Positions 13,094 to 64,000 of a DNA stretch of 64,000 nucleotides are shown piece after piece. Origin of the DNA: Nakazawaea peltata (Eukaryota > Ascomycota > Pichiomycetes > Alaninales > Pachysolenaceae); the NCBI GenBank assembly GCA_001599355.1, contig BCGQ01000001.1, positions 1,119,135-1,183,134 of the forward strand, in the 5' to 3' direction. Each line of letters begins with the position of its first letter. The stretch's first letter is position 1. Both the position numbers and the translations under genes were made by a program. Under the pieces are notes generated by a model, which had not been told where the DNA came from, did no database searches, and was given only the letters and a program-made list of their open reading frames with translations.

Positions 13094-14129
13094 TTACAAA
13101 TCGGCATCATCTTCATCAGGCAATGGCAATGCAGTGGCTTGCTCCATCTCCTGTTGGTATTTCTCCATCAAAGCGGCATCGACTTGGACTTCTGGAGGAG
13201 CCAAAGCTGGAGAGGCAACAAACTCCAATTGAGAGTTACCGACAACCTTTCTGGCCAACCATAAGAATGGCTTCTCAAAGTTGTAGTTGGATTTGGCGGA
13301 AATGTCAAAGTATTGCAAGTTCTTCTTTCTGTGGAAAGTAATAGTCTTGGCCTTAACCTTTCTCTCCTTAACATCGACCTTGTTACCACACAAGACGATT
13401 GGGATGTTTTCACAAACTCTGACCAAATCTCTGTGCCAGTTTGGAACGTTCTTGTAGGTGATTCTGGAGGTGACATCGAACATAATGATACCACATTGAC
13501 CGTTAATGTAGTAACCGTCTCTTAAACCACCGAACTTTTCTTGACCGGCAGTGTCCCAGACATCGAATTTAATTTCACCGTAGTTAGTGTGGAAAGCCAA
13601 TGGGTGGACTTCGACACCCAGAGTGGCGTAATATTTCTTCTCGAATTCACCAGTTAAATGTCTCTTGACGAAAGTGGTCTATAATGATTAGTTAGTATGT
13701 ATATTTTGATAGGAAGAGGTGTGAAATGGGGTGAATCGATGGAGTTGTTGACTAAATCAAGATCTAATGAAAATATCTCATCGATATCACAGTTACACCA
13801 CTGGTAATTGATCAATTAACACTAAATTCTTTAATTGATCCACGCTGATCAACTCATCGACTAATGATTTGGTATCCAATCCATTGAAAATCTGACCTAA
13901 ACAAAGCGCAAATATCTTCCGGGACATCGACAACACCAATCCGATACTTGATTACCAATATTTGATCGAAATTCTCAACATCGCCACCAAAACATTAACC
14001 GCTCTTCGATCCCCCCTTAAAGCGCCGATACTTCGCCACTATTCCACTTTAAACACAGTTTTTACTTACCTTACCGGTACCACCGTCACCGACCAAGACT
14101 AACTTGAAAGTTGGAACTTCTTGAGCCAT
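13094..14129 (-). CDS. GSP1: Ran GTPase Gsp1 (two exons)
   Basis: Exon 1 is 14070-14129 (20 codons, [20 protein letters not shown]) and exon 2 is 13094-13678, giving 214 residues. The 391-bp intron has donor GTAAGT, branch TACTAAC (13691-13697) and acceptor ATAG, and splits the P-loop between K20 and T21. Ran drives nuclear transport through importins and exportins. Seen: P-loop GDGGTGKTT, switch II DTAGQE at 62-67, [15 protein letters not shown] and the acidic tail DEDDADL, all Ran hallmarks. No CAAX box is present, as expected. Exon 2 alone has no ATG; it is open through the 5' coding part only because of splicing. Confidence 0.97.
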
Positions 14130-28141: not shown

Positions 28142-28717
28142 ATGAAGTACATTCAAACCGACCAAATCTTGGAGATCCCAGAAGGTGTCTCTGTCAACAT
28201 CAAGGCCAGAATCATCAAGGTCACCGGTCCAAGAGGTGAGTTGACCAAGAACTTGAGACACATCGATGTCACTTTCTCTAAGGTCAGCGACAAGGCCATC
28301 AAGATCACCGTCCACAACGGTGACAGAAAGCACGTTGCTGCTTTGAGAACTGTCAAGTCTTTGATTGCTAACTTGATCACCGGTGTTACCGTTGGTTACA
28401 AGTACAAGATGAGATTGGTTTATGCGCATTTCCCAATCAACGTTAACTTCATTGAGAAGGACGGTGACAAGTACGTTGAGATCAGAAACTTCTTGGGTGA
28501 CAAGAAGGTCAGATTAGTCAAGATCCGTGAGGGTGTTACCCCAGAGATCTCTTCTCTGCAAAAGGATGAGTTGATCTTCTCCGGTAACTCTTTGGAGGAT
28601 GTTTCTCAAACTTGTGCTGACGTTCAACAAATCTGTAGAGTCAGAAACAAGGATATCAGAAAGTTCTTGGATGGTATCTACGTTTCCGAGCGTGGTAACA
28701 TTGTTGAGGAGGCCTAA
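28142..28717 (+). CDS. RPL9: 60S ribosomal protein L9 (uL6)
   Basis: 191 residues, exactly the size of yeast Rpl9. Cytosolic large-subunit protein of the uL6 family near the sarcin-ricin region. Seen: [18 protein letters not shown], the two uL6 repeats, [42 protein letters not shown] and the C-terminal signature [20 protein letters not shown]. No intron. Codon use is very biased. The single CTG (28556-28558, residue 139) falls in the stretch where mammalian L9 has AQKDEL, consistent with CTG coding Ala even in a highly expressed gene. Confidence 0.97.
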
Positions 28718-30839: not shown

Positions 30840-33800
30840 ATGAGTTATCCCAACCAAAACTCATACAATGGTTACGGCGGTAACGCTAACACTAACCGCG
30901 ATCAATACTATGCTAATCAGAACGCGAACAATGAACATTCACCTCAAAGAGCTCAAGTACCCGGTCTGAACTCAGGCCAGTACAATGGACAATATCAAGG
31001 ACAATATCATACCCAGCAGACCACCAGATACACTCCTTCTTCTTCACCAGAGAGACGTCAACCATACCTGAATCAGACTCAATATCAAGGACTGTATTCT
31101 GTACCACAAGCACCGTTATCACAGGGTGTGAATAATCAGCAATCGGCTCGTTTAAGTGATCCGTTTGCTAATCCTGTACCTCCTGCTGCTTCTTATCAAG
31201 CTCCATCATTCAGCAATCATAATTCACCTATGGCGTCACCTATGGGATCACCTTCTCGCCAATATGGAAGTTCGATGCCCCAGCAGCAGCAGCATACTCA
31301 AAATTCTTATTATTCAGGTCAAGGACAAGATTATTTCCCACCTCAGTCGACTGCCCTGGCTGATCCCTTCCAAGCCCCACCACGTCATCCTTCTCAAGCT
31401 CAAGGCCAGCATAGCCCAAGAAATTCTTATGTACCGTCTATTGAAGTTCATGAGGATCCAATACAGAACCCATTCCAAGGAGGATCTAATCGTAACTCGG
31501 CCGTTCAGTACCCAGCTGATACCTCCTACCTCAATACCTATGAGATGAACAATATGAATGGGAATGTAAGTAATACTAATATTCCGTTCATGGGAGGAAA
31601 CTCCACTAGTTATGGTGGAGCTCTGCCTCAACCAGTAGGACCCACAGACAATTACGCAGGAGGATACTACGACAACTTATTCGAGCCTTATCCTCTCGAA
31701 GATGTAGACCCAATCGATAACGATTTCACTCCATTCCCAGTCACTGGAGATGCCTATGAAATCAACGCATACAATGATGAGCCAAGTTTTGACGATGATG
31801 ATGAGAGTAAGATCACTGACGAAACTGATCTCTCGTCCGTTTTACCTGAATATTATGAGACACCACGATTCGGAGACCCAGCTGAGGCCGAGGCTGAGGC
31901 CGCTGCCGCCGCTGCTGAGGACCATCCTCGTAGAAATAAAGGTATCAAGGTCAAAATGATCGATGGAAATTTGATCTTGGATTGTGAGGTATCTCAACAA
32001 TTATTACTGAAGTATCCTAACCCAGTAACATCTCAAGATAGAGAGTTCCGGTACATGAGATACCAGCTGCTGACCTGTGATCCCGATGATTTCGGTAGAC
32101 TGAAGTTCAGTTTGAGACAACTTTGTTATTATCAACCTCGTCAGACCGAGATCATGATCGTCGTTACAATGTACAATGAAGACGATGTGTTATTACTGAG
32201 AACTTTACAAGGTGTGTTCAAGAATATCAAATATATGTGTTCCAAGACCAATAGTGATACTTGGGGTAAAGATCTGTGGAAGAAGATCGTTGTATGTATC
32301 GTTAGTGATGGACGTACGAAGATCAATCCACGTTCGCAGCTGTTATTACTGCTGTTGGGAGTTTATCAAGAGGGATTCCTGAAGAATATGGTCAATGAGA
32401 AACCGGTAGTAGGTCATATCTATGAATATACCACTATGGTGGATATTAGTAAGGTTAAAGATGGAGCTGTTAAATTGACAACCCAAAAGACGGTACCTGT
32501 ACAACTTTTATTCTGTCTTAAAGAAAAGAACCAAAAGAAAATCAACTCTCATAGATGGTGTTTCCAACTGTTTGCTCCAATGTTACAACCAAATGTCGTA
32601 GTTTTACTTGACGCTGGTACTCAACCGCTGGGAGACTCGATTTATCAACTTTGGAAACTGTTCGATCGTGATCCAAGTGTAGCTGGTGCTTGTGGAGAGA
32701 TCAAACTGATGCTTAATCCTGTATGGTATAAACTTATGTGGGATATGATCCGTAAACCTATTGTTTACCTGCAAAATTTCGAGTATAAAACGTCCAACAT
32801 TTTGGATAAACCCATGGAGAGCGTATTTGGATTTGTTACTGTGTTACCGGGAGCGTTCAGTGCTTATCGTTATGTACTGCTTCAGAATGATGTCAATGGT
32901 GTAGGTCCACTTCTGTCTTATTTCAAGGGAGAAACATTACATAGTGGTGAAGCGGCAGGAGAATCGGGACTTTTCACTCTGAACATGTACCTTGCTGAAG
33001 ATCGTATCTTATGTTTCGAATTAGTGGCCAAACAAGGCTGTAACTGGCTTCTTAAATATGTCAAGAGTGCTAGTGCAAAGACAGATGTTCCAGAGCAACT
33101 TCCAGAGTTCATTTTACAACGTAGACGTTGGTTAAATGGATCGTTCTTTGCTGCGATTTACTCTCTTGTCCATTTCTTCAAGATTTGGAGAACTTCTCAT
33201 TCCATTCCAAGACTTGTCCTGTTCCATGTCCAATTTCTTTATCAGTTGATCAATTTGTTGGTGTCATGGTTCTCATTGCTGAGTTATTTCCTTGTCTTCC
33301 GTATCTTGACAGTCAATTTATCTGATGACTCATTACATATGGCTACAGTGGGGAATGTTCTTTCGGTGTTATTCCTTTGGTTATATCTTCTGTGTATTGT
33401 TACGACTTTCGTGTTGGCCTTTGGTAACAAACCGAAGGGTACCAAAAGATTTTATGTGGTAATTGTTTGGTTCTTTGCCGTTTTGATGGCTTATATGATC
33501 TTCGCAGCTGTTTATATGCTGGTTTATCTGGTTAAAGACATCATATCTGATAACGGTGGCACCTTGACCTTCTCTTTAGTATGGAGTTCTTCAAGATTCC
33601 GTGATTTGATCATCCTGACCGGGTCTACTTATCTGTTGTATTTCCTTGGTCTGTTCCTCTTCTTTGATCCATGGCATATGTTCACCAGTTTCATCCAGTA
33701 TATTTTGTTATCTCCACTGTATATCAATGTTCTTAATATCTATGCATTCTGCAATTTACATGATATTTCATGGGGTACTAAAGGTGACACTGGAGTTAAA

Positions 33801-34217
33801 TTAGATTTAGGTGTACTGAAACAGTCCAAATCCGAGGGTAAACTTTTCATTGAGATCCCAACCACCAATCAGGAAGTCGATGAACTGTATACTCGTCAAA
33901 TCAACATCTTGTTGAATCCTGAACCAGAGAAGGAATCGGCTCCTGATCCTGAAGAGAAGGAGAAAGATTATTATGCTTTTATCCGGTCTATGACGGTTCT
34001 CTTTTGGATGGTATCCAACTTTGTGATCATCGCCTTGGTCTTAGAAACTGGAGGTGTCAATCAATTGGGATCCACTAGTAGTACCACCAGTGACTCTGTG
34101 CTCTCAAGTAACTCACAAGTATTCCTTACAGTGATCTTATGGATCGTGCTGTTCATGGCATTGTTCCGCTTTGTAGGGTGTGTGTTATACTTACTCTTAC
34201 GTTTAATAGGTAAATAG
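30840..34217 (+). CDS. Chitin synthase, class I type (Chs1-like)
   Basis: 1125 residues, near the 1131 of yeast Chs1. It polymerises N-acetylglucosamine from UDP-GlcNAc at the plasma membrane. Residues 1-330 are Gln/Asn/Ser/Tyr-rich and disordered; the family-2 glycosyltransferase follows (EIMIVVTMYNEDDVL, KKIVVCIVSDGR, SNILDKPMESVFGFVTVLPG, MYLAEDRIL) with the catalytic QRRRW at 760-764, then six or seven membrane segments. CTG codons match family Ala: the one at 32877-32879 gives YRYV-A-LQND, and others give WK-A-F and R-T-preceding A. The class is inferred from the KYM-x-TWG-x-WKKIV block and length; class II (Chs2) is less likely. Confidence 0.9.
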   Translation: MSYPNQNSYNGYGGNANTNRDQYYANQNANNEHSPQRAQVPGLNSGQYNGQYQGQYHTQQTTRYTPSSSPERRQPYLNQTQYQGLYSVPQAPLSQGVNNQQSARLSDPFANPVPPAASYQAPSFSNHNSPMASPMGSPSRQYGSSMPQQQQHTQNSYYSGQGQDYFPPQSTALADPFQAPPRHPSQAQGQHSPRNSYVPSIEVHEDPIQNPFQGGSNRNSAVQYPADTSYLNTYEMNNMNGNVSNTNIPFMGGNSTSYGGALPQPVGPTDNYAGGYYDNLFEPYPLEDVDPIDNDFTPFPVTGDAYEINAYNDEPSFDDDDESKITDETDLSSVLPEYYETPRFGDPAEAEAEAAAAAAEDHPRRNKGIKVKMIDGNLILDCEVSQQLLLKYPNPVTSQDREFRYMRYQLLTCDPDDFGRLKFSLRQLCYYQPRQTEIMIVVTMYNEDDVLLLRTLQGVFKNIKYMCSKTNSDTWGKDLWKKIVVCIVSDGRTKINPRSQLLLLLLGVYQEGFLKNMVNEKPVVGHIYEYTTMVDISKVKDGAVKLTTQKTVPVQLLFCLKEKNQKKINSHRWCFQLFAPMLQPNVVVLLDAGTQPLGDSIYQLWKLFDRDPSVAGACGEIKLMLNPVWYKLMWDMIRKPIVYLQNFEYKTSNILDKPMESVFGFVTVLPGAFSAYRYVLLQNDVNGVGPLLSYFKGETLHSGEAAGESGLFTLNMYLAEDRILCFELVAKQGCNWLLKYVKSASAKTDVPEQLPEFILQRRRWLNGSFFAAIYSLVHFFKIWRTSHSIPRLVLFHVQFLYQLINLLVSWFSLLSYFLVFRILTVNLSDDSLHMATVGNVLSVLFLWLYLLCIVTTFVLAFGNKPKGTKRFYVVIVWFFAVLMAYMIFAAVYMLVYLVKDIISDNGGTLTFSLVWSSSRFRDLIILTGSTYLLYFLGLFLFFDPWHMFTSFIQYILLSPLYINVLNIYAFCNLHDISWGTKGDTGVKLDLGVLKQSKSEGKLFIEIPTTNQEVDELYTRQINILLNPEPEKESAPDPEEKEKDYYAFIRSMTVLFWMVSNFVIIALVLETGGVNQLGSTSSTTSDSVLSSNSQVFLTVILWIVLFMALFRFVGCVLYLLLRLIGK

Positions 34218-34271: not shown

Positions 34272-34820
34272 CTATTCGTCATAATCATTTACAGGTGGTT
34301 TCAGGTGATCGGATCTCATATACAAATCGATCAGGGTCGAGAACAGGGCGAAACCGGCACACCCTACAAGCAGCAGTTGAGGTCCACCACTGATGGCAAG
34401 ACCACCTCCTGTGATACAACCAGCAACTACCCCATTATAGATATCATTTTTCAGTCTCAAACTCTCGACACAACATTCTACACCACTGAAAATCAGTCCA
34501 ATGAATCCGAAATTCTTAGCACTTGACCATGATCTTCTTCCCATGTCAGAAAATTGTAATTTCATCTGCTGTTTGAGGGGAAGATCAGATATATGTTTGA
34601 CAGCACCTCCTGCAACTCCCCCAGCACCTCCTGTAGCTGCTCCTACCGGTACATCATACAGCATCGATGCCATGAATAACCCAAAGAATCCTCCTAACAG
34701 GAAACCACTGACTCCACTCATCGCTGTTTTACCTGGACAGGACTGCATGAAGTTGATCATCAGTTGCAGTCCCAGCTCTCCCTGCTCTTCGGCAGTCATT
34801 TCACTGAATGGTTTGGACAT
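34272..34820 (-). CDS. TIM22: Mitochondrial carrier translocase Tim22
   Basis: 182 residues, usual for Tim22 (207 in yeast). The channel subunit of the TIM22 complex inserts carrier proteins into the inner mitochondrial membrane. Seen: N-terminal CPGKTAMSGVSGFLLGGFFGLFM, then a Gly/Ala-rich loop, a conserved MGRRSWSSAKNFGFIGLIFSGVECC block and two more Gly-rich membrane segments (YNGVVAGCITGGGLAISGGP). Cysteines of the twin positions (CPGK and GVECC) that form the Tim22 disulphide are present. Tail-to-tail with the chitin synthase; divergent to SNU23. Confidence 0.94.
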   Translation of the reverse strand: MSKPFSEMTAEEQGELGLQLMINFMQSCPGKTAMSGVSGFLLGGFFGLFMASMLYDVPVGAATGGAGGVAGGAVKHISDLPLKQQMKLQFSDMGRRSWSSAKNFGFIGLIFSGVECCVESLRLKNDIYNGVVAGCITGGGLAISGGPQLLLVGCAGFALFSTLIDLYMRSDHLKPPVNDYDE

Positions 34821-35217: not shown

Positions 35218-35847
35218 ATGAGTAACGGTTCTTTTGGAAGAAGAACTTGGGATAGAGAAGAATATGCTCGTCGACTGAAGGAGTCACGGGAATCGAAAGA
35301 AGAGACAAAAGACCAACCTAAAACCTCAACTTCACGTCATGATCTTCATAAATCACGTTTGGAACAGTTAGATGCTATAGCTTCTGACTCTGGGTCGTCA
35401 TTCCTCATCTCCCAAGATCAAGCTGCTAGGACAGGAAAGCGTGGACGTGGGATTGGTTTTTACTGTGAAGCGTGTGATTTGACATTCAAAGATGACTATG
35501 AATTGGTGAGTCATTTGAATTCCAAACAGCATTTCCAGAATGCCGGGGTTGAATATGTTGACACGAGAGATATTACCCTTGAGATGATCCAGAGTCGAGT
35601 AGAACTGCTACTGCTGAAGAGGCTGGCTGCACAAGAACTGCTGCTGAGAGAAAGTGGAGAACCAATGTATAATATTGAGAAGAGGATTCAACAGCGAAGG
35701 GAATTCCAACAACGACTTGCTCTGAAGAAGAAACAGAAACGGTTGGCCAAACAACTGCAGAAGCTGACTGAACCTGTCGATCATCCTCAAGATGAGCAGC
35801 TAATGCTGGCCATGGGATTCGCTGGTTTCGGGTCTACAAAATCATAG
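35218..35847 (+). CDS. SNU23: U4/U6.U5 tri-snRNP zinc-finger protein Snu23
   Basis: 209 residues (yeast Snu23 is 194). A spliceosomal protein of the B complex that helps position the U6 ACAGA/5' splice site helix. Seen: the diagnostic start SFGRRTWDREEYARRLKE, a single C2H2 finger GFYCEACDLTFKDDYELVSHLNSKQH (about residues 80-105) and a long basic helix IEKRIQQRREFQQRLALKKKQKR. The C-terminus has MGFAGFGSTKS, matching the family's MGFSNFATSKK ending. Very good match to ZMAT2/Snu23. Confidence 0.93.
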   Translation: MSNGSFGRRTWDREEYARRLKESRESKEETKDQPKTSTSRHDLHKSRLEQLDAIASDSGSSFLISQDQAARTGKRGRGIGFYCEACDLTFKDDYELVSHLNSKQHFQNAGVEYVDTRDITLEMIQSRVELLLLKRLAAQELLLRESGEPMYNIEKRIQQRREFQQRLALKKKQKRLAKQLQKLTEPVDHPQDEQLMLAMGFAGFGSTKS

Positions 35848-36666: not shown

Positions 36667-37725
36667 TCAAGCAGAAGAAGCAGCTGTGGCAGTAGCAGTA
36701 GCAGTAGCAGCAGCAGTCTTCTCAACATCATACTTGAAGTCGAAGTAAGATTTGTCAAAAGTATGAAGTCTGATATAACCATCTTCACCTCCCGACAGGT
36801 ACATAGTTCCCTTTGGATGAATAGCAACACAATTTAATGGACCGAAATGACCCTTTACTCTACCGATTTCGTCTTCGAAAATCTTATGGTAGAATCTAGC
36901 CTCGAATTTACCTTGTTGAGACGAGGTAGTTGTAACTTCTCTGGCTTCTTGACCTCCTCCCAAAATGACAAAGTCTTTAAGTGGGGTAATACAAGCAGTG
37001 TTCATTTGGACATCCAGCTCATATACCTTAAGAACATCAAGGTTATCCACATCACAGATCTTGGCAGTCTTGTCCTTAGAAGCAGTGATGAAGTAAGTCT
37101 TATCCTCACTCATTTGAATGTCGGTAATATTAAGCTCGTGTAAACTCTTGGAGGTAATAAGCTCACCAGTAGCAGCATCGTATTTTGAGAGACTTCCATC
37201 TTGGTGACCAGCAATGATGTATTTGCCCAGGTAAGACCAAGAGGCACATGTAACCTTAGGAGAAGTCTTTTCGATTTGAATACGGAGGATAGGTTCATCC
37301 GGTTGTACGACAGAAGCATCAGTAGCTTGCAGTCTGTCAAATGAATAGATAGAGATAGCACCTGGCAATCCCATTACCTGATCAGTGACAATCAAGAACT
37401 TGTCACTGGCATCTCCAGGTACGAATTCAGCCCATCTGGCTGGGGTGTCGGTCTTCCAAGTCTTGTAACACTCACCGTTAGACAGTCTCCATAACTTGAC
37501 ACTGAAATCAGCACTCAGAGTTACAACGAACTCGGTCTCACGGTCGACATCTAAGGACCAAATGGTACCAATGTGGCCATCAAAAGTCCCAATACGCTCT
37601 CCGTTGGATGAGTACCAAACCGACAGAGTCTTATCCTTGGCGACACTGAACAATAAGTCACCTTCACGGTTGAATTTCACCTGTGTCAACGATCTCTCGT
37701 GTCCCTTCAACAAAAGAGGTCTCAT
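36667..37725 (-). CDS. TIF34: eIF3 subunit i (Tif34)
   Basis: 352 residues (yeast Tif34 is 347). A seven-bladed WD40 propeller of eIF3, bound to subunit b, required for initiation. Seen: MRPLLLKGHERSLTQVKFN, the DKTLSVWYSSNGER blade, GHIGTIWSLDVD, SADFSVKLW, GQHQDGSLSKYDA-like blade, ITASKDKTAKI, and GHFGPLNCVAIHPKGTMYLSGGEDGYIRLHTFD. The C-terminal 15-20 residues are an Ala/Thr repeat (TATATATAAS) made by a GCAGTA/GCAGCA microsatellite, unlike other Tif34 proteins. Two AAAATTTT elements lie upstream. Confidence 0.95.
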   Translation of the reverse strand: MRPLLLKGHERSLTQVKFNREGDLLFSVAKDKTLSVWYSSNGERIGTFDGHIGTIWSLDVDRETEFVVTLSADFSVKLWRLSNGECYKTWKTDTPARWAEFVPGDASDKFLIVTDQVMGLPGAISIYSFDRLQATDASVVQPDEPILRIQIEKTSPKVTCASWSYLGKYIIAGHQDGSLSKYDAATGELITSKSLHELNITDIQMSEDKTYFITASKDKTAKICDVDNLDVLKVYELDVQMNTACITPLKDFVILGGGQEAREVTTTSSQQGKFEARFYHKIFEDEIGRVKGHFGPLNCVAIHPKGTMYLSGGEDGYIRLHTFDKSYFDFKYDVEKTAAATATATATAASSA

Positions 37726-42412: not shown

Positions 42413-43462
42413 CTATTTCTCTTCAAGCGAGAATACCACATCTTTATCGGTCAGCGGATTATATTCTTGGAGAAGGAACTTGGAGAATTTCTTCAAGTTG
42501 TCCAAACCTCTTACTTCCATTCCTAACAAAGGCATCTTAACCAAGTGGTAATCTTCGTATAACTCATCCATTTGAGATAAGTATTTCTTTTGCATCAGCC
42601 ATCTGGCCTTACACCTCTTACATTCATCGTCACCTTCAGCGAACAATAATTGGTTAACGACAATGGAGTTGACGTCCATGTTGTATGAGATCAACTCCTG
42701 GATCAAACGTTCGGTCTCATAAAGAGACAAGAACTCAGAAATACATACACAAATGAAAGTAGTGAGCTCTGGATCTTGGAATTGGACATTTACCTCGGCA
42801 ACTTGTTCTTGGATCTCCTTCAATTTTCCAAACATATCTTGTTGTTGATTGGCTCCTCCCATCAATGATCCCAACATTGGTCCCAATTTACCGGTCAATT
42901 CACTGAACTTACCCAATAATTTCTCAAGAGTAGTTGGCAATTGCAAGAATCTCAAAGTATGACCAGTTGGTGCGGTATCGAAGATAATGGTGTCGTACTT
43001 GATAGCGGTGGAATTCTCGTCAGTTTGGGACTTGATATGCTTCAATACCTCCATGAAAGACAACAGCTCATCGATACCTGGGATACTCAGAGTCATATCT
43101 CCCATCATCGACTTTAATGGATCATTTGGATCGGCGTTGGCCAACAATTGCGAGTTGCTAGCGCTGTTTTGTAACTCCTCCATCGCCAGATTTGGATCGA
43201 TCTCCATACAACTCAAATTGGACAATCCCTCCACTGGACGAGCATCTTTACCGAACTTCTGACAGAACAGATCGGACAAATTGTGTGCAGGATCAGTAGA
43301 GATCAACAAATAGTTTTTCTTTGGGTTCAGCAACAGTAACTGGATCGACACCGAACAAGACGTGGTAGTCTTACCTACACCACCCTTTCCTCCGACGAAG
43401 ATCCACTTCAAGGAGTCGTGTGATACGATAGATTTGAGATTAGGGTCTAATTGGAAGTCCAT
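42413..43462 (-). CDS. GET3: Tail-anchored protein targeting ATPase Get3
   Basis: 349 residues (yeast 354). Get3 captures tail-anchored proteins from Sgt2 and delivers them to Get1/Get2 at the ER. Seen: deviant Walker [10 protein letters not shown] at 24-32, DPAHNLSD then CTG (43268-43270) then [16 protein letters not shown] then CTG (43064-43066) then [21 protein letters not shown] and the zinc motif CKRC. Both quoted CTGs fall on residues invariantly Ala in Get3 (SDAF, GIDEALSF), strong evidence for a CUG-Ala code. Gene is in a cluster of secretory-pathway genes. Identification is secure. Confidence 0.97.
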
Positions 43463-51015: not shown

Positions 51016-51021
51016 TCACTT
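50994..51021. repeat. Four copies of CTCACTT
   Basis: Perfect 7-mer tandem repeat overlapping the stop codon (51016-51018) of the M20 gene. Confidence 0.8.
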
Positions 51022-52158
51022 CTTAAGGCAGTGCGCGATCAACTTCTTTATATCGTCAAGTCCTTGTAAGAGACTGTCTACTTCGATGTACTCATCGGCA
51101 GCATGGGCTTGCAAGATAGATCCAGGACCGTAAAGATATCTCTTGGTTTGTGGACCTACTTTCAAATAGCCAATGTCTGTACCGTAGCTGAACAGCTTAG
51201 TAGCGAATCCTTCGACATCATAGTCAAGATATTGAGGAGGAGATCCCACCTGGTCGACAGTAATGTATTGAGAAAACCCAGTATCCTCTATGATTTGAGA
51301 AATTGTAGCTGTGATGTTGTCATAATCTTGAGCTACTCTGATTGACAACCTCAGTTCCAGATAATCGGAGATCACATTTGCCAGGACTCCACCGCTGATT
51401 TTACCAATGTTAACAGTCGATTTACCAAGCAATTCATTCACTGGGTAATTGGCATGTTCAATCAGGTGCATTATATCGATGAGAATCGCATTACTGTCCC
51501 TACCTAACTCTGGGTAAGCTGAATGCAGCGAAATTCCTTGAACGGAGATCTTCAGCCCCCAAGCACCTTTGTGACCTAAGGCAAGGTAATTGTCAGTTGG
51601 CTCCGAGAAAATGACCGACTCCCATTTCTGTAAGACCCCATCGGCAGTGAAGATTTCGTTGGCCGTTTGCATTCCAATGGCTGAACTTTCCTCTCCAACC
51701 ACGATCAACAACAGCACATCTCCCTCAGAGAGGTCCATCTCTAATACCAGAAGTACTTGAGCGGCAATCGACAGTTTCAGGTCTGAAGTTCCACGTCCAT
51801 AAATCTTGTTACCTTCCCGACGGTATGGCTTGTAAGGTGGTACTGTGTCCATGTGAGTAGTAACTAAGACCTTAGTTTCTCTGACATCTCCATAGTACAG
51901 GAACACATTTGGAGACCTATCACCTCTATTGGTCTCCTGCAATTCTACTGTCATACCATTGGATTCTAAGAAATCCTTCAAAAAGTAAGCCAAAGTATGT
52001 TCGGTTTCAGAAGTGGAATCGATATCTATTAAACTTTTATGGAATTCTACCAAGTCATATTTTGGCAGGTCCAATTCAAGCTTCAATTGTGGGACAACAG
52101 ATGCCATAGCGAACGACAAAGACACTAAAATATATCCTAATACTGATGATAATAACAT
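51016..52158 (-). CDS. Secreted or vacuolar M20 metallopeptidase
   Basis: 380 residues with an N-terminal signal peptide (MLLSSVLGYILVSLSFAMAS). M20 family (ArgE/DapE/ACY1/CPG2), a two-zinc exopeptidase or deacylase. Seen: TTHMDTVPPYKPYR with its metal-binding His and Asp, IYGRGTSD, GEESSAIGM with the catalytic Glu, FSEPTDNYLALGHKGAWGLK and SLHSAYPELGRDSN of the lid domain, and LYGPGSILQAHAADEYIE near the end. Two CTGs at 51772-51780 give the family motif GTSDAKASIAAQ when read as Ala. Substrate unknown; by family a carboxypeptidase S- or acetylornithinase-like activity is possible. Confidence 0.85.
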   Translation of the reverse strand: MLLSSVLGYILVSLSFAMASVVPQLKLELDLPKYDLVEFHKSLIDIDSTSETEHTLAYFLKDFLESNGMTVELQETNRGDRSPNVFLYYGDVRETKVLVTTHMDTVPPYKPYRREGNKIYGRGTSDLKLSIAAQVLLVLEMDLSEGDVLLLIVVGEESSAIGMQTANEIFTADGVLQKWESVIFSEPTDNYLALGHKGAWGLKISVQGISLHSAYPELGRDSNAILIDIMHLIEHANYPVNELLGKSTVNIGKISGGVLANVISDYLELRLSIRVAQDYDNITATISQIIEDTGFSQYITVDQVGSPPQYLDYDVEGFATKLFSYGTDIGYLKVGPQTKRYLYGPGSILQAHAADEYIEVDSLLQGLDDIKKLIAHCLKK

Positions 52159-54948: not shown

Positions 54949-57900
54949 ATGTCAAAACGATTCTCGATGAACAGTGTCGACCCAGAGTCTGGGGTCAACA
55001 GGAAACGGTCTTTAGTAAGACCACAGCGTCATCCCTTTTCTTCCACCCCCATCACTTCCAACGGTGGTCCAGCGGCCGGAGCAGGAAATGCTATTCAATT
55101 GCAAGACATTTCCCCGGCTCGGGACTCTGCCGATTACGGTCAACCTGCTCTTGGAAAAGAGATCTATGGACTCAATGACGAGAGACCCAAGAGAAGTAAG
55201 AGTTTACGGAGTAAGAAGGGGAGAGAAGACAGATCTACCGCCTTGGATCTGGATGAAACAGAGAAGGCGTTACTTGGAGACAGTAGTGTCGGTATTGACA
55301 ACAGCGCAGCAGTTGCCTTGCTGAAAGCCAAAGCTCAGGCCAAAGCCAAAGCCGATAAATCGGAAGATAAAATGAGCGCCTGGCAATTTTATTGTTATGT
55401 GATCACTTTCTGGGCTCCAGGTCCAGTTCTTAAATTATTTGGATTCCCAACTCAATCCCGTCAGTTTGCTTGGCGTGAGAAGATCCTGTTAATCAGTATC
55501 ATTCTTTACATTGCTGCTATCGTGGCCTACATTACATTTGGTTTCACAGCTACTGTTTGTGATACCGAGATCACTAGACTTAGAAACAACCAGATCAGTT
55601 CTGGTTATCTTATCATTAATGGTAGAGCTTATGATTTGACCACCTCTACCCATCCTAAACTGCTGGGAATCAGTGCAGGTGCCAATATTTTGTACCCTCC
55701 TATTAATGCAGGGGGTAAAGACCTGAGTTTCTTATTCCAAAATGTCAATGGAAATTGTAAAGGTCTTATTAAGCCAAGAGATAACACTACAATCCCTACA
55801 GATGGAGAAGAATTGGCTTGGTATATGCCTTGTAACTTATTTGATCAAGACGGTTCATCTTCTCCTAATTTCTCCACCCCTTACTATAACGGTTGGGCCT
55901 GTCATACATCGTCTTCTCTGAGAGAACTGTACTATGGATTGGATGCTACTGGAGATGTGTTTTTCACTTGGGATGATATCAAGAATTCGTCGAGAAACTT
56001 GATAGTCTACTCTGGAGATGTCCTCGATATGGATTTGATAGACTGGTTGTTGACCGATGATTTGGAATATCCAGAGTTATTCGATATGTTGAGATACGAT
56101 GACATGATGCTGGGATATGATGTTTCCATGTTATTATCATCGAGTGAACAACGTCAACTGGCTCGTTGTCTTACCGAGATCGTCAAGGTGGGTGTTATCG
56201 ATTCGAGTACTTTGGGCTGTATCGCTTCTAAGATCGTTTTATATCTGTCTCTTATCTTTATTTTGGCCGTTGTATTTGCCAAATTCTTCATTGCTTGTTA
56301 TTTCAAGTGGGTCATGCTGAAAAGACAAGGTTATAACCAGTTAAGTGTCAAGGATATGCAACAAAGAGAACGTAAATTGGACTCGTGGTCTGAAAATCTG
56401 TTCACTTTGGGTCCTATCAAAGATGCTCCAAGCCGTAACAACGCCAATACTCATAAAAGAGTCACTAGTAGGATGAGTATGTTTGGCGGACCTCGTTCTA
56501 GACAATCTTTAGGAGGAGATAAGACTTTTGGGAGTCCATTTGAAGAGGAAATTGGTGCTAATGGTGCCGCTAATGGAACTATTGGTATTTCCAACTCGGT
56601 CTACCGTCCAAAATACATCACTATGGGTACTCAAACTCTGAAATATGCTCAAGAAATGGCCCAACAACAAGCTCAACCTAACCGTCGTTCTTTCTACGGA
56701 GTCGAAAGTAGTCTGGGCCACTCTCGTAACACTTCCATGATCTATGGTAACCCATTCGACAGTAACCATAGTTTACTCAATATTGGTGGAGCCGCAGGTT
56801 CTCCTGCTGGTGCAATTGACACTTTAGCTGTCGATATAATCCACCCAGATGTTGTTCCTCAACCTCCAATCGACTATGAACCGTTCAATTATCCTCTCGC
56901 CCACACTATATGTCTTGTTACATGTTATTCTGAGGATCTGGAAGGATTGAGAACCACTTTCGATTCCATCTCAACATCAGACTTCCCTAACTCCCATAAA
57001 CTTATCTTTGTAGTATGTGATGGGTTAATTAAAGGTCATGGTAATGATATGAGCACCCCTGATATTGCATTATCGATGATGGATGACTTTGTCACCCCTG
57101 TTGACGAAGTCCAACTGTATTCGTATGTATCGGTAGCTCAAGGTACTAAGAGACATAATATGGCTAAAGTTTACGCCGGTTTCTATAAGTATGACGATGC
57201 TACTGTTCCTGTAGAGAAACAACAAAGAGTTCCAATGGTTACTGTGGTCAAATGTGGTACCAGTGACGAGATGTCTAGCTCTTTGAAGCCAGGTAATAGA
57301 GGTAAACGTGACTCTCAAATCTTATTGATGTCTTTCTTACAAAAAGTAATGTTTGATGAGCGTATGACACTGTTAGAATTCGAATTACTCGCTAATATTT
57401 GGAAAGTCACAGGGCTCATGACCGATATGTATGAATTGGTGTTGATGGTGGATGCCGATACTCGTGTTTATAGCGACTCTTTGACTCACATGGTAGCTGA
57501 GATGGTGAAGGATCCAAACATTATGGGACTTTGTGGAGAAACCAAGATTCTGAATAAACTGCAATCGTGGGTTACTCTGATCCAAGTGTTTGAATATTAT
57601 ATTTCTCATCATCAACTGAAACTGTTTGAGACAGTATTTGGTTGTGTCACTTGTTTGCCAGGATGTTTCAGTATGTACAGAATCAAGTCTCCAAAGGGTC
57701 AGAGTGGGTACTGGGTTCCTATTTTGCTGAACCCAGATATCGTAGAGAAGTATAGTGAGAATGTTGTGGAGACATTACATCAGAAGAATCTTTTGTTATT
57801 GGGAGAAGATCGTTACTTATCATCGTTGATGTTAAGACATTTCCCTAAGAGAAAGCAAGTGTTTGTTCCTAAACTGTGTTGTAAAACTGTGGTACCTGAC

Positions 57901-58497
57901 ACTTTCAAGGTTCTTTTATCTCAGAGACGTCGTTGGATCAACTCGACGGTTCATAACTTATTTGAATTGGTTTTAGTTCAAGATTTATGTGGTACTTTCT
58001 GTTTCTCCATGCAATTTGTTATTGCCATTGAGTTGATTGGTACTTTAATTTTACCTGCTCTGATTCTGTTCACATTTTACGTCATCATTTTCCTGATCGT
58101 GTCGTCACCTACTCCAGTTTTGACCTTAATTCTTTTGGCCATCGTTTTAGGACTTCCTCTGGTACTTGTGGTTGTTACTGTCAGTAGTTTGAAGTATCTT
58201 TTCTGGATGCTTTGTTATTTGCTTCTGTTACCTATTTGGAATTTCGTATTACCACTGTATCTGTATTGGAAATTCGATGATTTCAGTTGGGGAGACACCA
58301 GAAAGACGTCTAGTGACGTCAAGGGCAAACTGCTGGGACATGATGATGCAGACGGAGAGTTTGACGGATCTAAAATCGTACAAAAGAGATGGGTTGATTT
58401 TGAGAGAGATAGAATTAATGGAGTTGGATCAAGTGATGGCCCATATGTAGCACCATATGCTACGGTACCAGCAGGTGTATGGGATCCTTCTAGATAA
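54949..58497 (+). CDS. CHS3: Chitin synthase 3 (class IV)
   Basis: 1182 residues (yeast Chs3 1165). It makes most cell-wall chitin, including the septal ring and lateral wall. Seen: two N-terminal membrane segments around FITFWAPGPVLK and LLISIILYIAAIVAYITFGF, a large lumenal loop (NPFQNVNGNC-type FLFQNVNGNCKGLI), ARCLTEIVKVGVIDSSTLGCIAS, and the catalytic domain HTICLVTCYSEDLEGLRTT, PGNRGKRDSQI, LVLMVDADTRVYSDSLTHMVAEM, LCGETKI, CLPGCFSMYRIKSPKG, QRRRW at 992-996 and the tail FDDFSWGDTR. At least eight CTGs coincide with Ala in yeast Chs3 (for example NKAQSWVTAIQVFEYY, HHQAKAFE, PVLANPD, PKAACK). The CHS1-type and this synthase are both in the window. Confidence 0.97.
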   Translation: MSKRFSMNSVDPESGVNRKRSLVRPQRHPFSSTPITSNGGPAAGAGNAIQLQDISPARDSADYGQPALGKEIYGLNDERPKRSKSLRSKKGREDRSTALDLDETEKALLGDSSVGIDNSAAVALLKAKAQAKAKADKSEDKMSAWQFYCYVITFWAPGPVLKLFGFPTQSRQFAWREKILLISIILYIAAIVAYITFGFTATVCDTEITRLRNNQISSGYLIINGRAYDLTTSTHPKLLGISAGANILYPPINAGGKDLSFLFQNVNGNCKGLIKPRDNTTIPTDGEELAWYMPCNLFDQDGSSSPNFSTPYYNGWACHTSSSLRELYYGLDATGDVFFTWDDIKNSSRNLIVYSGDVLDMDLIDWLLTDDLEYPELFDMLRYDDMMLGYDVSMLLSSSEQRQLARCLTEIVKVGVIDSSTLGCIASKIVLYLSLIFILAVVFAKFFIACYFKWVMLKRQGYNQLSVKDMQQRERKLDSWSENLFTLGPIKDAPSRNNANTHKRVTSRMSMFGGPRSRQSLGGDKTFGSPFEEEIGANGAANGTIGISNSVYRPKYITMGTQTLKYAQEMAQQQAQPNRRSFYGVESSLGHSRNTSMIYGNPFDSNHSLLNIGGAAGSPAGAIDTLAVDIIHPDVVPQPPIDYEPFNYPLAHTICLVTCYSEDLEGLRTTFDSISTSDFPNSHKLIFVVCDGLIKGHGNDMSTPDIALSMMDDFVTPVDEVQLYSYVSVAQGTKRHNMAKVYAGFYKYDDATVPVEKQQRVPMVTVVKCGTSDEMSSSLKPGNRGKRDSQILLMSFLQKVMFDERMTLLEFELLANIWKVTGLMTDMYELVLMVDADTRVYSDSLTHMVAEMVKDPNIMGLCGETKILNKLQSWVTLIQVFEYYISHHQLKLFETVFGCVTCLPGCFSMYRIKSPKGQSGYWVPILLNPDIVEKYSENVVETLHQKNLLLLGEDRYLSSLMLRHFPKRKQVFVPKLCCKTVVPDTFKVLLSQRRRWINSTVHNLFELVLVQDLCGTFCFSMQFVIAIELIGTLILPALILFTFYVIIFLIVSSPTPVLTLILLAIVLGLPLVLVVVTVSSLKYLFWMLCYLLLLPIWNFVLPLYLYWKFDDFSWGDTRKTSSDVKGKLLGHDDADGEFDGSKIVQKRWVDFERDRINGVGSSDGPYVAPYATVPAGVWDPSR

Positions 58498-58538: not shown

Positions 58539-61500
58539 TTATATCAGTTGAAGTATCTCGGTAATGATCTCTGCTAACCCCTCGGATTTGTGTCCATACT
58601 TTGCCAGATTGAGTAAAAGTTGGTGCACAAGAATGGAATTTTTGAGTTTTTCTTCGTCGCAATTGCTGACAAACCGGAGATACCCGGTGAGAATAGTGCT
58701 TAATTCCTGAGCAAATAATGAAGGAAGTGGCAGCTTGTTGATGATCTGATTAAGAACTAAGAAACGACGAAGGGTGACGGCTAAACGGATTTGGAGGATA
58801 CTCAGCAGTTTAGAAGGAACGATCTGCGCAAGATCGATTATTTTATCGAGGTTCATCCGACGAATATCAAGTCTAGTAGATGGCATCATTTGATAGTCAT
58901 TATCACATATAGAGAGGATAGTTTGATCGGAATTATTATCGATAAGGAGTCTATCGACATCACCCAATTGATGCCAGAAACTTGCTTCGAAAACAATATC
59001 GATGAAACGAGGAAGTAACAGATCCAATTCTGGTACTTGACGATTATCGATAATGAGGTTATGTAAGAGGTGTAAATATTTAAGATCCACTTCTTCAACC
59101 ACTGGGTCTTGAGTGTTGTAGTTGCTCAAAATCAGTACAAGTTCGATAACCAAGGTCCAGAATTGGTGTTTTTCTTTGGAATCGGTGAATTGGAGCAGCA
59201 GCTGGTTCAAATCGGTCAATATATCGAGCGATTGTATCCAAAGAGCCGATTTTGTGGGGATCCCGATCGCGCGCGCACCGATCGGTTCGAAAAGAGACCT
59301 ATAAATTTTGAAAAGAACTGGGGCCGAGACCGTACCGGAGGGGAGTTGTTTTAATTGTGACTGTAATAAATCAATGGTTTTATGAGCTACCGAAACGAAG
59401 GTCGGGATCTTGACGGCATTCAAGCTGCGTTCGAGTTTCTCACGGATTTTGTCACGGGTATGGAAGGGAAGTGTTACAATTGAGGTGAGCTCTTGTAAGA
59501 GGAGGGAAGTAGTTGGGGAGGTAATTTTTTCTCTGGAGCTGCGCAGATCAGTGTCTTCTGGAGTCTCTTTCTGAGTGTCCGAGCCCTCCAGATCATCCTG
59601 ACCATCACCCCCACTCAACAACACAAGATTTGCATAGACAGATTCTTGTAACCTTGTAGTTCTTAATTTATCACTCGATAAATGATCCGGTAATACAGGA
59701 TACTTAATACACGAATTCAATACCCCAAGAAGCTCTTTATACATCTCAACAGTGACGATGCCGTGAGTATTCCAAAGTGGGAATAGAAGTGGGAACAAGT
59801 CCATGAGCAGAGTGAGCATTTCTTGATATAAATTAGGGGATACAAGATTGTAAGTAATTTTCACGGAAGTAAAGAACTGATATAAATCTTGAAGAATAGG
59901 TAATAAATGTTGATGAGAGCCCAGTTGAGGTAAAACTGTAACCAATTCCTTAACTAAACCATACACTTTCAAACTTAACTCATCACTTCCCAACATGATT
60001 AATCTTCTACAAAATTCTACTAATCCTCGCCAATATCTCACTTTCTCGTCTCCATCAACATTTGAAAATGAGCTGGAATACAATCTTACGAAACCATTTA
60101 ATGTTAAGTAGTAACAATCGTGGAAATTGTTTTTAGTGTCCAGTTTATCTGCTCTTTCGGCCAGCAGCACTTCAAACAATTCATGTTCGAATATAATGTC
60201 ATAGATTGATGACCAATATTTAGGTTCCATGATACTGTTGGACTCGAGGATATTAAAGAAGGTCTGGATAGATCCGTTACGGACTTGTAAACGAGGATCT
60301 GAACGGATACTTTCTGAAAGAGAATAGAGGGAGTAAATATAGAGGAGTTGAGGATCACTTGAGGATGATACAAGATCAGTGAGCAGAGAAGAGGTGGATG
60401 CGATGGCGGAGCCAACTCCAGATGAGTCATGTTCGCCAGAAGAATCGGTTTCTGTGGTATCTGCACTCGCACTTCTCAAGTAATCACTGATCAACCAATA
60501 ATAACTGATAGAATTCAATGAGATATTCAAATCGACCTCCTGAGATATAAAATTAGAAATACAATCTATCAGAATCTTCAATTGAGATCTAGGTAACGAA
60601 GATAAAAACTCGTCCAAAATCATCTTTAACAGATCAAAAGAAGAGTTAATTACAGGGACTCTTCTTTTGAGTAAAGCCGTAGAAACTGTGGAAGCTGTTG
60701 GACTCTCAAATGAAGTGTTAATGATATTAAATACAAGATCCCAATGTTGGAACCGAACTCCATATTGATCTAAAAGAGATTTCAAAGTGTCTAAAATCAT
60801 AGATTGAATCTCAAGATCACAATTTAACACAAATAACAGATCTATACCATCACGAGACAGGATAAGTTGAGAGATAAGACGGTCGAGAGAACTCAAGACT
60901 TTGAATTCGGTCAGTCCTGAAAGCTGAGGCAGTTTTCCAGAAGCAGCAAATCCTTCGGATGCCATATTTTGTACTACCATCATAAGATCTTTAGCAAGAA
61001 CCAACCTGATTTCTTGACCCAATTTACGATTACTGATAAGTTTATAATAATCATCCCAAATCAAGACCCAATTTTCTTCTGGTTGGATCAAGAATTTGAC
61101 AGCATTGATACATGAGATTTCCCTGATTTTGACATTGAACAGGATTCGATTGTATCGGCTGGGGACGATCTGGAATTTATGAGGCTCATTCTTCTTACTG
61201 GAAGGAATGATTGGTTGTCTATAGAAAGTGCCAGCAGTCATCATTTCATCTGAGAGCTGGATCAAAGCTTTAAGAATCTCGGTATATACAGAGACGGAAT
61301 AAAAATTGATATTTTCATAGAGTTTTTTCACAGAATGAGCTACTTGAGCAATATCCGACTCCGAAAGTGATGGCAGAGGTGCTGAATGGAGATGAGCCGA
61401 ACTTTGATTAGATTTCGAAGGTGAATGATGAATACTGGTCTCGGTGTCATCCCCTTCTTCATCGTCATTAGAAGCTCCATTGACAAAATATTCCATCCAT

Positions 61501-63413
61501 TGAACAGTAATGAAAATTAATCTCCAATTATCCCTCTTCAAAATCGTTCCTAAAGAAATCAGTAAACTGATCAAGACTCGGAAACAGACGACATTACGTG
61601 GGTTGATATTACGTGGGTAAACATTATTTGACAGGATCAGCAGAGCCGGTTGGAGTGCAGAGGAATTCTGAGTCAACAGTTGGTTGATAGTATTGACAAT
61701 ACTCTCTCCAATCGAATACATGGAATTCTTATACTGGAAGCCGGACTTGCCCTCAAGGTTTAGCGTCAGTTTGATGAGCAAATTCAAGAACAAGTCACGT
61801 GACTCGGTCTGTCCTACGATCCCGCTCAGTTGGCAGAATTTTTGGTATGCGCGGATGAGTCTGTCGAATAGCTCCTGATCCATGGTGGAAAAAAGAAGTG
61901 TGGAGTAAATGTTGTAAAGGTGGAGATGATTTTGGGAGATGATTTTGAGGGCGGTCGTGTGGGAAGTCCCATTTTGCGATTCGGTAAGGTTTGCCGTATA
62001 GTTGTATAAACCTTCACTAAAAGAGACCAAAGTGGAGAAAATTAAGTATAATAGGTAGGTTTCATGGACTTGAGGGGGGTCCAGTTTATCTAAAAGATCT
62101 ATGAATTGGATCTTTGCGGAGGATTTTGATTGAAAGAGACCTGGGAGTTCAGATTCGGAAGCCATTGGGGTGGAATTCGTTCCATTTGTTCCATTGGTTC
62201 CAGAAATAGATCTGGCTCGAGGTGCCGATTGTAAAATCTCTCCAGTATTCAATAAATACTTATTATCATTGATTAACTCCCAACAATTACCCCAAAATTC
62301 TTGAAATATCTTAGATTTGGGTTCATCTTGGTAATCAAATTCCATGAAATACAGGTCGATGAGCTCGAAATCCATGCAAACGGCCCTGAAGATCTCCAAA
62401 GCTAAGATTTTCTTCCAGAATGGAGATGATGAGTCTTTAGTTAAGACATGATTAAGAAGAGACAATATGACTTGAGTTTCCAATTTCAAATTGACAAACT
62501 GTTCTTTAATTAAGAGAAGAATTAACCTGGACAGACGAACCAAATTTAAAAAATTCTTGGAAGAACTGAAACATCTCAATAAGATGGGCACGATCTTAGT
62601 ACGTAAAAGATAACCTAATTCTTGATGGGATAAGAAGATCTGTCTGTTAGTCTTGATACAACTTTCGAGGATTTCGAAACCGAAATTCTCATTTATGACG
62701 GCTCCTTTCAAATACGTTGGGGGTTGATGTTGTTGTGGCAGTTGTTGCTGTTGTTCTAAGATACTACAAAGATCCAGAAGGATACGTTGACCGTCATACA
62801 GATTCAACCCCACCTTCAAACTACCATCGTCATCTATTGGCACCGTATATGATCTATCCAGCTCCATCATCTGATTATTTTCTTCGTCGTTTATCTTCTC
62901 AAATACAATATTAATCAATTGAGATAACGTAGCTGAGGCCGTATTAACGACAATATTGGATTTGGAATTCTGTAGTACCGAGCAAATCGAGAGCAACTTG
63001 AACAAATTCTTATCATTGATGAAGATGGAATAGTTTTGGAATAAGAATGGAAGGCATTGTAAGATTTTGAGTTGGATTTCCGCAGCCAAATTCGATGATT
63101 CGATGAACAGATCAAGTAAAAGTTCCAATTTTGTAATGGGGATGGATTCCGATAAGATCAATTTATGAAAGCATGATATCGAGATTGAGATATATTTGGG
63201 GTTCCGCGTCTGACACGATAATAAAAATGGGGTAATGAAGTCACCATTCTTACTCAAGTTCTTTAAGAACAGAGACTCAGAGGTGATGGAGCTGTTGTAT
63301 TTCTTTAAAACTTCTAGGGATTTTTCAGACAGTTGCTTGATATCGGCGTTTCGACGCTTACTTTCCGACAGTAAGTTTGAAAGCTCGAAATTGAGCTGGT
63401 TAATGGTGTTCAT
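58539..63413 (-). CDS. MON2: Mon2, Golgi/endosome trafficking scaffold
   Basis: 1624 residues from the ATG at 63413 (MNTINQLNFEL); an in-frame GTG upstream adds 10 codons and is not favoured. Yeast Mon2 is 1636. Large HEAT-repeat peripheral protein related to the BIG/GBF Arf GEFs but without the Sec7 domain; with Dop1 and Neo1 it acts at the late Golgi and in vacuole sorting. Seen: the DCB-like N-terminus (LSNLLSESKRRNADIKQLSEKSLEVLKK, NTASATLSQLINIVFEK), the HUS region (LTKDSSSPFWKKILALEIFRAVC), then helical repeats to the end. The only odd feature is length-preserving low-complexity Ser/Thr/Gly tracts near 410-430 (GTNGTNGTNST). Confidence 0.9.
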   Translation of the reverse strand: MNTINQLNFELSNLLSESKRRNADIKQLSEKSLEVLKKYNSSITSESLFLKNLSKNGDFITPFLLSCQTRNPKYISISISCFHKLILSESIPITKLELLLDLFIESSNLAAEIQLKILQCLPFLFQNYSIFINDKNLFKLLSICSVLQNSKSNIVVNTASATLSQLINIVFEKINDEENNQMMELDRSYTVPIDDDGSLKVGLNLYDGQRILLDLCSILEQQQQLPQQHQPPTYLKGAVINENFGFEILESCIKTNRQIFLSHQELGYLLRTKIVPILLRCFSSSKNFLNLVRLSRLILLLIKEQFVNLKLETQVILSLLNHVLTKDSSSPFWKKILALEIFRAVCMDFELIDLYFMEFDYQDEPKSKIFQEFWGNCWELINDNKYLLNTGEILQSAPRARSISGTNGTNGTNSTPMASESELPGLFQSKSSAKIQFIDLLDKLDPPQVHETYLLYLIFSTLVSFSEGLYNYTANLTESQNGTSHTTALKIISQNHLHLYNIYSTLLFSTMDQELFDRLIRAYQKFCQLSGIVGQTESRDLFLNLLIKLTLNLEGKSGFQYKNSMYSIGESIVNTINQLLTQNSSALQPALLILSNNVYPRNINPRNVVCFRVLISLLISLGTILKRDNWRLIFITVQWMEYFVNGASNDDEEGDDTETSIHHSPSKSNQSSAHLHSAPLPSLSESDIAQVAHSVKKLYENINFYSVSVYTEILKALIQLSDEMMTAGTFYRQPIIPSSKKNEPHKFQIVPSRYNRILFNVKIREISCINAVKFLIQPEENWVLIWDDYYKLISNRKLGQEIRLVLAKDLMMVVQNMASEGFAASGKLPQLSGLTEFKVLSSLDRLISQLILSRDGIDLLFVLNCDLEIQSMILDTLKSLLDQYGVRFQHWDLVFNIINTSFESPTASTVSTALLKRRVPVINSSFDLLKMILDEFLSSLPRSQLKILIDCISNFISQEVDLNISLNSISYYWLISDYLRSASADTTETDSSGEHDSSGVGSAIASTSSLLTDLVSSSSDPQLLYIYSLYSLSESIRSDPRLQVRNGSIQTFFNILESNSIMEPKYWSSIYDIIFEHELFEVLLAERADKLDTKNNFHDCYYLTLNGFVRLYSSSFSNVDGDEKVRYWRGLVEFCRRLIMLGSDELSLKVYGLVKELVTVLPQLGSHQHLLPILQDLYQFFTSVKITYNLVSPNLYQEMLTLLMDLFPLLFPLWNTHGIVTVEMYKELLGVLNSCIKYPVLPDHLSSDKLRTTRLQESVYANLVLLSGGDGQDDLEGSDTQKETPEDTDLRSSREKITSPTTSLLLQELTSIVTLPFHTRDKIREKLERSLNAVKIPTFVSVAHKTIDLLQSQLKQLPSGTVSAPVLFKIYRSLFEPIGARAIGIPTKSALWIQSLDILTDLNQLLLQFTDSKEKHQFWTLVIELVLILSNYNTQDPVVEEVDLKYLHLLHNLIIDNRQVPELDLLLPRFIDIVFEASFWHQLGDVDRLLIDNNSDQTILSICDNDYQMMPSTRLDIRRMNLDKIIDLAQIVPSKLLSILQIRLAVTLRRFLVLNQIINKLPLPSLFAQELSTILTGYLRFVSNCDEEKLKNSILVHQLLLNLAKYGHKSEGLAEIITEILQLI

Positions 63414-64000
63414 GGTGACTATCTGACAACAATAGAGTACCACTCAATAATATGGGAAATGTATGACACGGTATCGTATGAAAATGTATGGTGAGGTATG
63501 GTAATTGGAGTTGATATAGGGCGATTGGGCAATGTGTGTGGAATACAAGCTCGTATCGATATCGGAAGTAGTCAGAAACCAATAAATACCACTATCTACA
63601 AATGAAGTAAATGGTACCTTATCGATTGGTGAAGTGTCTTTTTCTAGAGAGTAGTGTATGAAATGCTAAAACGTTCAAATAAACGGATTAATATGGAGAA
63701 ATACAGAGCTCGGATAGGCGTTAGCAATTTATTAAAATGATAGGGCCAGTGGGTAGAGCAGTGGATCACTAACCACCAAGACTGACTATTAGGACACACT
63801 ATTAAGACTCGTTGGAGCAACCACTGAGCCACCACTGACCCTCACTACGCCGCCATCTCATACTCCACACTACTACTCTTCTACTCCCCTCAATTAACAT
63901 AATACATTAACTATACACTAACTTCTAAACACATGCTTACATGATGAACATACATAGAATAAAATCATACTAGTATCCTTTCTACGCTGTTGACTCTGGA
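63414..64000. promoter_or_regulatory. MON2 promoter and window edge
   Basis: 587 bp upstream of MON2. It includes a stretch (63741-63840) rich in CAGTGG/CCACTG words with a tRNA-like A box but no valid cloverleaf. No gene was supported, and the next gene lies outside the window. Confidence 0.4.

Follow-up and report, generated by a model that had tools for sequence, protein, structure and literature searches.

Here we show that CTG stands at alanine sites in genes across the whole of a 64,000-nucleotide stretch of DNA (contig BCGQ01000001.1, positions 1,119,135 to 1,183,134; hereafter the window), and that no leucine meaning of the codon is detectable there. We regard it as nearly certain that the window belongs to a budding-yeast nuclear genome that translates CUG as alanine (National Center for Biotechnology Information (NCBI) translation table 26), most likely that of a member of the CUG-Ala clade (Alaninales). 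The code itself is rare and already known; the part worth keeping is quantitative, namely that CTG has become fully naturalised and leads the alanine codons of the window.

The Alaninales comprise Pachysolen, Nakazawaea, and Peterozyma, the three genera that a preliminary description of the window, made from its letters, had named as users of CUG-Ala decoding, in agreement with Krassowski et al. 2018 (PMC5951914). A Codetta screen of 462 yeasts, the CUG-Ala clade included, is reported to give the known code distribution in 453 of them (PMC8629427).

Residues facing CTG in solved homologues

Nine genes (GET3, CHS1, TIM22, RSM22, an amino-acid permease, RPL9, TIF34, a SNU23/ZMAT2-like gene, and DPH1) were each aligned to their best solved homologue. 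CHS3 was excluded because its matches were distant: a search of the PDB returned only distant chitin and hyaluronan synthases (best 50.4 bits), and no Chs3 homologues were found in a scan of viral_contigs. The standard code was used to translate the query proteins, a choice whose bias, if any, disfavours alanine. The aligned stretches contain 111 CTG codons, five of which lie opposite gaps; the other 106 were scored, with columns taken as independent. The preliminary description had proposed counting the dominant residue in CTG-bearing columns; this residue is alanine (45 of 106), followed by glycine (13), serine (11), lysine (7), threonine (7), valine (6), glutamate (4), methionine (3), leucine (2), and others. 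Alanine faces CTG far more often than chance would give. Counted in the same way, GCT faces alanine in 42 of 86 columns, TTG faces leucine in 75 of 113, and TCT faces serine in 34 of 80.

In residue make-up, the CTG columns are indistinguishable from the columns of the four GCN codons (chi-squared p=0.41) and depart sharply from those of the leucine codons (p=1.2e-48) and the serine codons (p=3.8e-13). When residue profiles derived from other codons are applied to the CTG columns, alanine is preferred to serine by 79 bits and to leucine by 315 bits; gene by gene, it is ahead of leucine in all nine and ahead of serine in eight, the exception being RPL9 with its single CTG. At positions where two homologues carry the same residue (in parts of GET3, CHS1, and TIM22), alanine occupies 11 of 18 CTG columns, glycine two, and lysine, valine, glutamate, threonine, and serine one each, with leucine in none. 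A mixture fit of the CTG columns assigns 0.91 to alanine, 0.09 to serine, and 0.00 to leucine, with 95% intervals of 0-0.04 for leucine and 0-0.25 for serine.

As a control, the same inference was carried out in leave-one-out form for each of the 50 codons represented by ten or more columns. The standard residue was recovered for 46 of the 47 codons that have an independent profile, CTG being the sole departure; ATG, TGG, and TGT, which have no independent profile, were each inferred as another residue. Among the 47 testable codons the code change is confined to CTG. With CTG as alanine and the other testable codons standard, the window shares the pattern of the Pachysolen tannophilus code (table 26).

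Pfam family scores under three readings

Twenty proteins of the window were scored against Pfam with CTG read as alanine, serine, or leucine, and 19 of them matched a family; the protein encoded at 41607-42356 gave no Pfam match. Summed over 26 main domain families, scores amounted to 4771.0 bits with alanine, 4690.8 with serine, and 4564.9 with leucine, i.e. margins for alanine of 80.2 and 206.1 bits, respectively. Alanine was the best reading in 19 families, serine in four, and leucine in two, with one alanine-serine tie. Most of the margin over serine (68.1 bits) was contributed by the first ten proteins, the second ten adding 12.1 bits.

Certain rows were kept outside these sums. Among the first ten proteins these were 10 of 23 rows, being weaker or second models of stretches already counted; over all 23, alanine scored best in 21, the exceptions being the Glyco_trans_2_3 rows of CHS3 and CHS1. 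The Roc and Arf rows of GSP1 favoured leucine by 0.4 and 0.6 bit, zf-met and bZIP_2 favoured serine by 0.2 and 2.0 bits, and HEAT_GCN1_C was listed with the alanine reading only. Among the second ten proteins, other beta-propeller models of TIF34 were likewise set aside; leucine scored above alanine in three of the 24 listed with alanine (PF25168, PF23409, and PF23389), and two more (PF25171 and PF23798) were listed with leucine and not with alanine.

Weighing other meanings of CTG

Several results weigh against alanine decoding and bear on its alternatives. Serine is the best reading in its four Pfam families by 0.1-0.9 bit, and in the Glyco_trans_2_3 row of CHS3 by 2.9 bits; in that of CHS1 serine leads by 4.3 bits, with leucine second at 2.7 bits over alanine. 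In the aligned columns, TIF34 separates alanine from serine by only 0.2 bit, RPL9 puts serine ahead by 1.1 bit on one column, and the mixture interval allows serine up to a quarter. Leucine is best by 0.9 bit in the WKF domain and by the same amount in the Ras domain of GSP1 (137.5, 137, and 138.4 bits for alanine, serine, and leucine). The sole CTG of GSP1 is codon 40 (13621-13619), a site that we take to be leucine in human Ran and isoleucine in yeast Gsp1.

The alternative that survives best, although we hold it to be very unlikely, is ambiguous decoding of the kind known from Ascoidea asiatica, in which competition between tRNAs or their mischarging would cause CTG to be read mostly as alanine and in part as serine or leucine. 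The 25% serine reached by the mixture interval and the presumed leucine or isoleucine site of GSP1 could be read in this way, but the best fit holds 0% leucine with an upper limit of 4%, and serine makes up the same share of columns at CTG (11 of 106) as at GCT (9 of 86). Since serine is no more frequent at CTG than at GCT, nothing points to a second meaning of the codon. A report of 10% leucine at CUG in Pachysolen also speaks for ambiguity; it is called a mistake in PMC8645108, which gives more than 99% alanine at CUG in that yeast. The CUG-Ser2 yeasts (Ascoidea and Saccharomycopsis), which have both serine and leucine tRNAs for CUG, involve the same codon and differ from the window in that no leucine component is seen here within the 4% limit.

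Less probable still, to the point of being scarcely credible, is a serine meaning of CTG, the code (NCBI table 12) of Candida and its relatives. Serine is second best overall, as expected of a residue easily swapped with alanine, and its lead in the four families that it wins does not exceed 0.9 bit. GET3 and CHS1 have their best solved matches (3io3 and 7stl) in Serinales. A 2014 phylogeny gave Pachysolen a serine code, which predates the discovery of the alanine code (PMC4986446). However, serine falls 79 bits below alanine in the aligned columns and 80 bits below it in the Pfam sums, and the CTG columns are distinguishable from those of serine codons and not from those of GCN. The CUG-Ser1 yeasts (table 12, Serinales) have reassigned the same codon and also underuse CUA (PMC6701816), yet CTG, which is abundant here, is avoided there (PMC11540330). 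The standard leucine meaning, towards which the GSP1 site and the WKF domain lean by 0.9 bit each, is already refuted by the column counts (leucine stands in 2 of 106 CTG columns, whereas the other leucine codons face it in 191 of 305), and trails alanine by 315 bits in the columns and 206 bits in Pfam. The claim of the preliminary description that neither leucine nor serine fits as well as alanine is therefore borne out by aligned columns, Pfam scores, and mixture fit alike.

CTG usage and naturalisation

Codon usage was counted over 27 gene models, which are simple open reading frames; eight of them start at a GTG or TTG that probably precedes the true ATG. CTG accounts for 408 of 14178 codons (28.8 per 1000). 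CTG is the commonest alanine codon of the window, ahead of GCT (312), GCC (185), GCA (108), and GCG (31), and makes up 39% of alanine-type codons. Because CTG reaches these levels, its use was rightly described beforehand as an established code rather than rare mistranslation. Conserved sites are included: where the homologue has alanine, the window has CTG in 45 columns and GCN in 72 (38% CTG), similar to the overall share. Intergenic triplets, a rough yardstick, contain CTG at 11.8 and GCT at 10.3 per 1000, so that the enrichment of CTG in genes resembles that of an ordinary alanine codon.

Genes contain almost no CTA (29 of 14178 codons in the models), although the triplet is common in intergenic DNA (14.2 per 1000). 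We propose that a low level is maintained of tRNA-Leu(UAG), a tRNA that can wobble-pair with CUG and misread it, which would explain the scarcity of CTA. An underrepresentation of CUA has been described for the CUG-Ser clades by LaBella 2019 (PMC6701816), a study from which five CUG-Alanine species were excluded.

Two genes depart from the general usage. In RPL9 and GSP1, both presumably highly expressed, CTG makes up 2 of 25 alanine-type codons, as compared with 406 of 1019 in the remaining genes (Fisher p=0.0007, for a pair selected once the data had been seen). The preliminary description had CTG common even in RPL9, which is not borne out: a single CTG occurs among the 191 codons of that gene, and it faces threonine in the best homologue. 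Over all 27 genes, CTG share and codon bias are not significantly correlated (Spearman -0.18, p=0.38; -0.31, p=0.12). On balance we lean, by a small margin, towards a codon takeover that is complete, with CUG the top alanine codon, conserved sites included, CUA nearly gone, and only strongly codon-biased genes avoiding CUG.

The Discussion of Krassowski 2018 (PMC5951914) describes CUG as relatively rare in clades with a changed code; CTG is abundant in the window, so that this summary is not matched. A 2024 study in G3 that includes Alaninales describes CTG avoidance for Serinales and Ascoideales (PMC11540330). In the literature searched, which did not include the original Pachysolen papers or supplements, we found no printed statement that CTG is the leading alanine codon, although it may well be known.

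Probable clade affiliation and proposed origin of the code

The best solved match of GET3 is 3io3, at 573.6 bits against 482.6 for the next-listed GET3 chain, and that of CHS1 is 7stl, at 1024.5 bits against 816.5 for the next-listed Chitin synthase 1 chain. We take 3io3 to be from Debaryomyces hansenii and 7stl from Candida albicans (both Serinales), and the next-listed chains to be from Saccharomyces cerevisiae. Within a comparison set free of Alaninales sequences, this order of matches would fit a member of the Pichiomycetes. The GC content of Pachysolen tannophilus is about 30%. That of the window is 40.2%, near the 42.3% of Nakazawaea ambrosiae (PMC10106607). On this basis P. tannophilus itself seems an unlikely source, but GC content gives a hint and does not identify the species.

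From the literature, the code may have arisen when a copy of a tRNA-Ala gene acquired a CAG anticodon by mutation. Such a tRNA would still be charged with alanine, given that the alanyl-tRNA synthetase acts independently of the anticodon; the enzyme reads the acceptor stem (G3-U70). The resulting tRNA-Ala(CAG) would then have taken the place of a lost tRNA-Leu(CAG). We infer that a tRNA-Ala(CAG) is encoded in this genome. Within the window, ARAGORN (bacterial code) found no tRNA genes and Rfam at gathering score returned only a small nucleolar RNA (snoRNA), snR40; a text scan for the B box marked four candidate places.

Genes of the window

The CHS3-type chitin synthase (54949..58497, forward strand) has 1182 amino acids (aa) and 34 CTG codons, and scores 916, 903.7, and 879.2 bits against Chitin_synth_2 with alanine, serine, and leucine (the order used for all scores in this section). 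Its C-terminal part (57550..58263, forward strand) contains 14 in-frame CTGs. Eight of these (57550, 57559, 57577, 57616, 57622, 57727, 57874, and 58261) had been named in the preliminary description as alanine positions; the others lie at 58060, 58066, 58093, 58159, 58225, and 58255. Six codons in other genes were named with them: 43268 and 43064 in GET3, 6910 in the permease, 51772 and 51778 in the M20 peptidase, and 32877 in CHS1. A position check found all 14 cited CTGs present and in frame. The residue-level comparison covers four of them (two in GET3, one in CHS1, and one in the permease), and the eight in CHS3 and two in the M20 peptidase were assessed through family scores only. Residues 65 and 133 of GET3 and residue 680 of CHS1 are alanine in both homologues compared; residue 267 of the permease is in frame as described, but the aligned LysP residue is glycine and not alanine.

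The CHS1-type chitin synthase (30840..34217, forward strand; 1125 aa, 35 CTG) was aligned to 7stl and 7xs6 and scores 249.3, 245.4, and 232.2 bits against Chitin_synth_1; its 30 CTG columns against 7stl hold alanine 12 times, serine eight, glycine four, and other residues six. The GET3 ATPase (42413..43462, reverse strand; 349 aa, 8 CTG) is, outside CTG, 80% identical to 3io3, which has alanine in five of its CTG columns, lysine in two, and glycine in one. TIM22 (34272..34820, reverse strand; 182 aa, 12 CTG) faces alanine eight times, methionine twice, and arginine and glycine once each in 6lo8. For RSM22 (10649..12928, forward strand; 759 aa counted from GTG, 23 CTG), 17 CTG columns against 8d8j contain alanine (8), glycine, serine, threonine, and lysine (2 each), and glutamate (1).

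Membrane transport is represented by three genes on the reverse strand. The aligned amino-acid permease (6001..7710; 569 aa, 20 CTG; AA_permease 437.2, 429.3, and 418.9 bits) has alanine in four, glycine in three, and other residues in 11 of its 18 CTG columns against LysP 9eyd. A second amino-acid permease (22265..23857; 530 aa, 29 CTG) scores 168.2, 165.7, and 154 bits against AA_permease_2, and a transporter of the sodium:solute symporter family (18624..20756; 710 aa, 24 CTG), which we take to resemble DUR3, scores 54.9, 51.5, and 40.3 bits against SSF.

The M20 peptidase (51016..52158, reverse strand; 380 aa, 13 CTG) scores 71.1, 65.7, and 63.3 bits against M20 and 69.8, 60.6, and 60.1 bits against M20_dimer. 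The DPH1-type diphthamide synthase (201..1496, reverse strand; 431 aa, 7 CTG) scores 379.1, 375.3, and 373.3 bits against Diphthamide_syn, its five CTG columns holding alanine three times and glycine and valine once each. TIF34 (eIF3i; 36667..37725, reverse strand; 352 aa, 7 CTG) scores 498.4, 496, and 491.1 bits against EIF3I, and faces alanine in two of seven columns. The SNU23/ZMAT2-like zinc-finger protein (35218..35847, forward strand; 209 aa, 12 CTG) was aligned to 5o9z, with alanine in three, lysine in two, and leucine, valine, and methionine in one each of eight CTG columns, and four CTGs opposite gaps. MON2 (58539..63443, reverse strand; 43 CTG) scores 149.8, 149.9, and 143.5 bits against DCB, 116.3, 117.2, and 110.7 against HUS, and 32.7, 31.6, and 31.4 against Mon2_C; leucine is disfavoured, and alanine and serine are not separated. 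RPL9 lies at 28142..28717 on the forward strand. GSP1 (Ran; 13094..14129, reverse strand) consists of exons 14129-14070 and 13678-13094 with an intron of 391 nt (13679-14069) that carries the signals GTAAGT and TACTAAC.

Two further features were observed. A HAC1-like bZIP gene (25739-27220, forward strand) likely contains an Ire1-type intron of 375 nt (26772-27146). The consensus of Ire1 cut sites is CNGCNGN, and this 7-base motif is present at both ends of the putative intron, where it can be drawn by eye in hairpin loops: CAGCAGT within CATCATC/GATGATG, and CTGCAGC within GGT/ACC. Of these two stems, local folding by computer recovered the 5' one, with an extra pair inside the loop, and not the 3' one. 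The spliced product would have 368 aa and the C-terminal end SSFDFYDFVLVDE; the gene was counted unspliced in the usage table, with nine CTGs as against seven when spliced. The C/D box snoRNA snR40 lies at 52633-52727 (forward strand) and scores 78 bits against Rfam RF01201, the sole Rfam match at gathering score.

Consequences for annotation and for codon capture

Translation with the standard table would put a wrong residue at about 2.9% of codons (408/14178) in the proteins of the gene models. For the genome of Nakazawaea ambrosiae, genes are described as predicted by AUGUSTUS on the basis of an S. cerevisiae reference (PMC10106607), and a term search of the main text of that paper found none of the terms "codon", "genetic code", and "CUG"; the published Nakazawaea ambrosiae proteins may be mistranslated at CTG. 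A complete takeover, if true, would run counter to the general view of CUG as a codon that remains rare and marginal in yeasts with a changed code. The high CTG usage makes it possible to follow the path from captured to preferred codon, and conserved sites suited to mass spectrometry are numerous.

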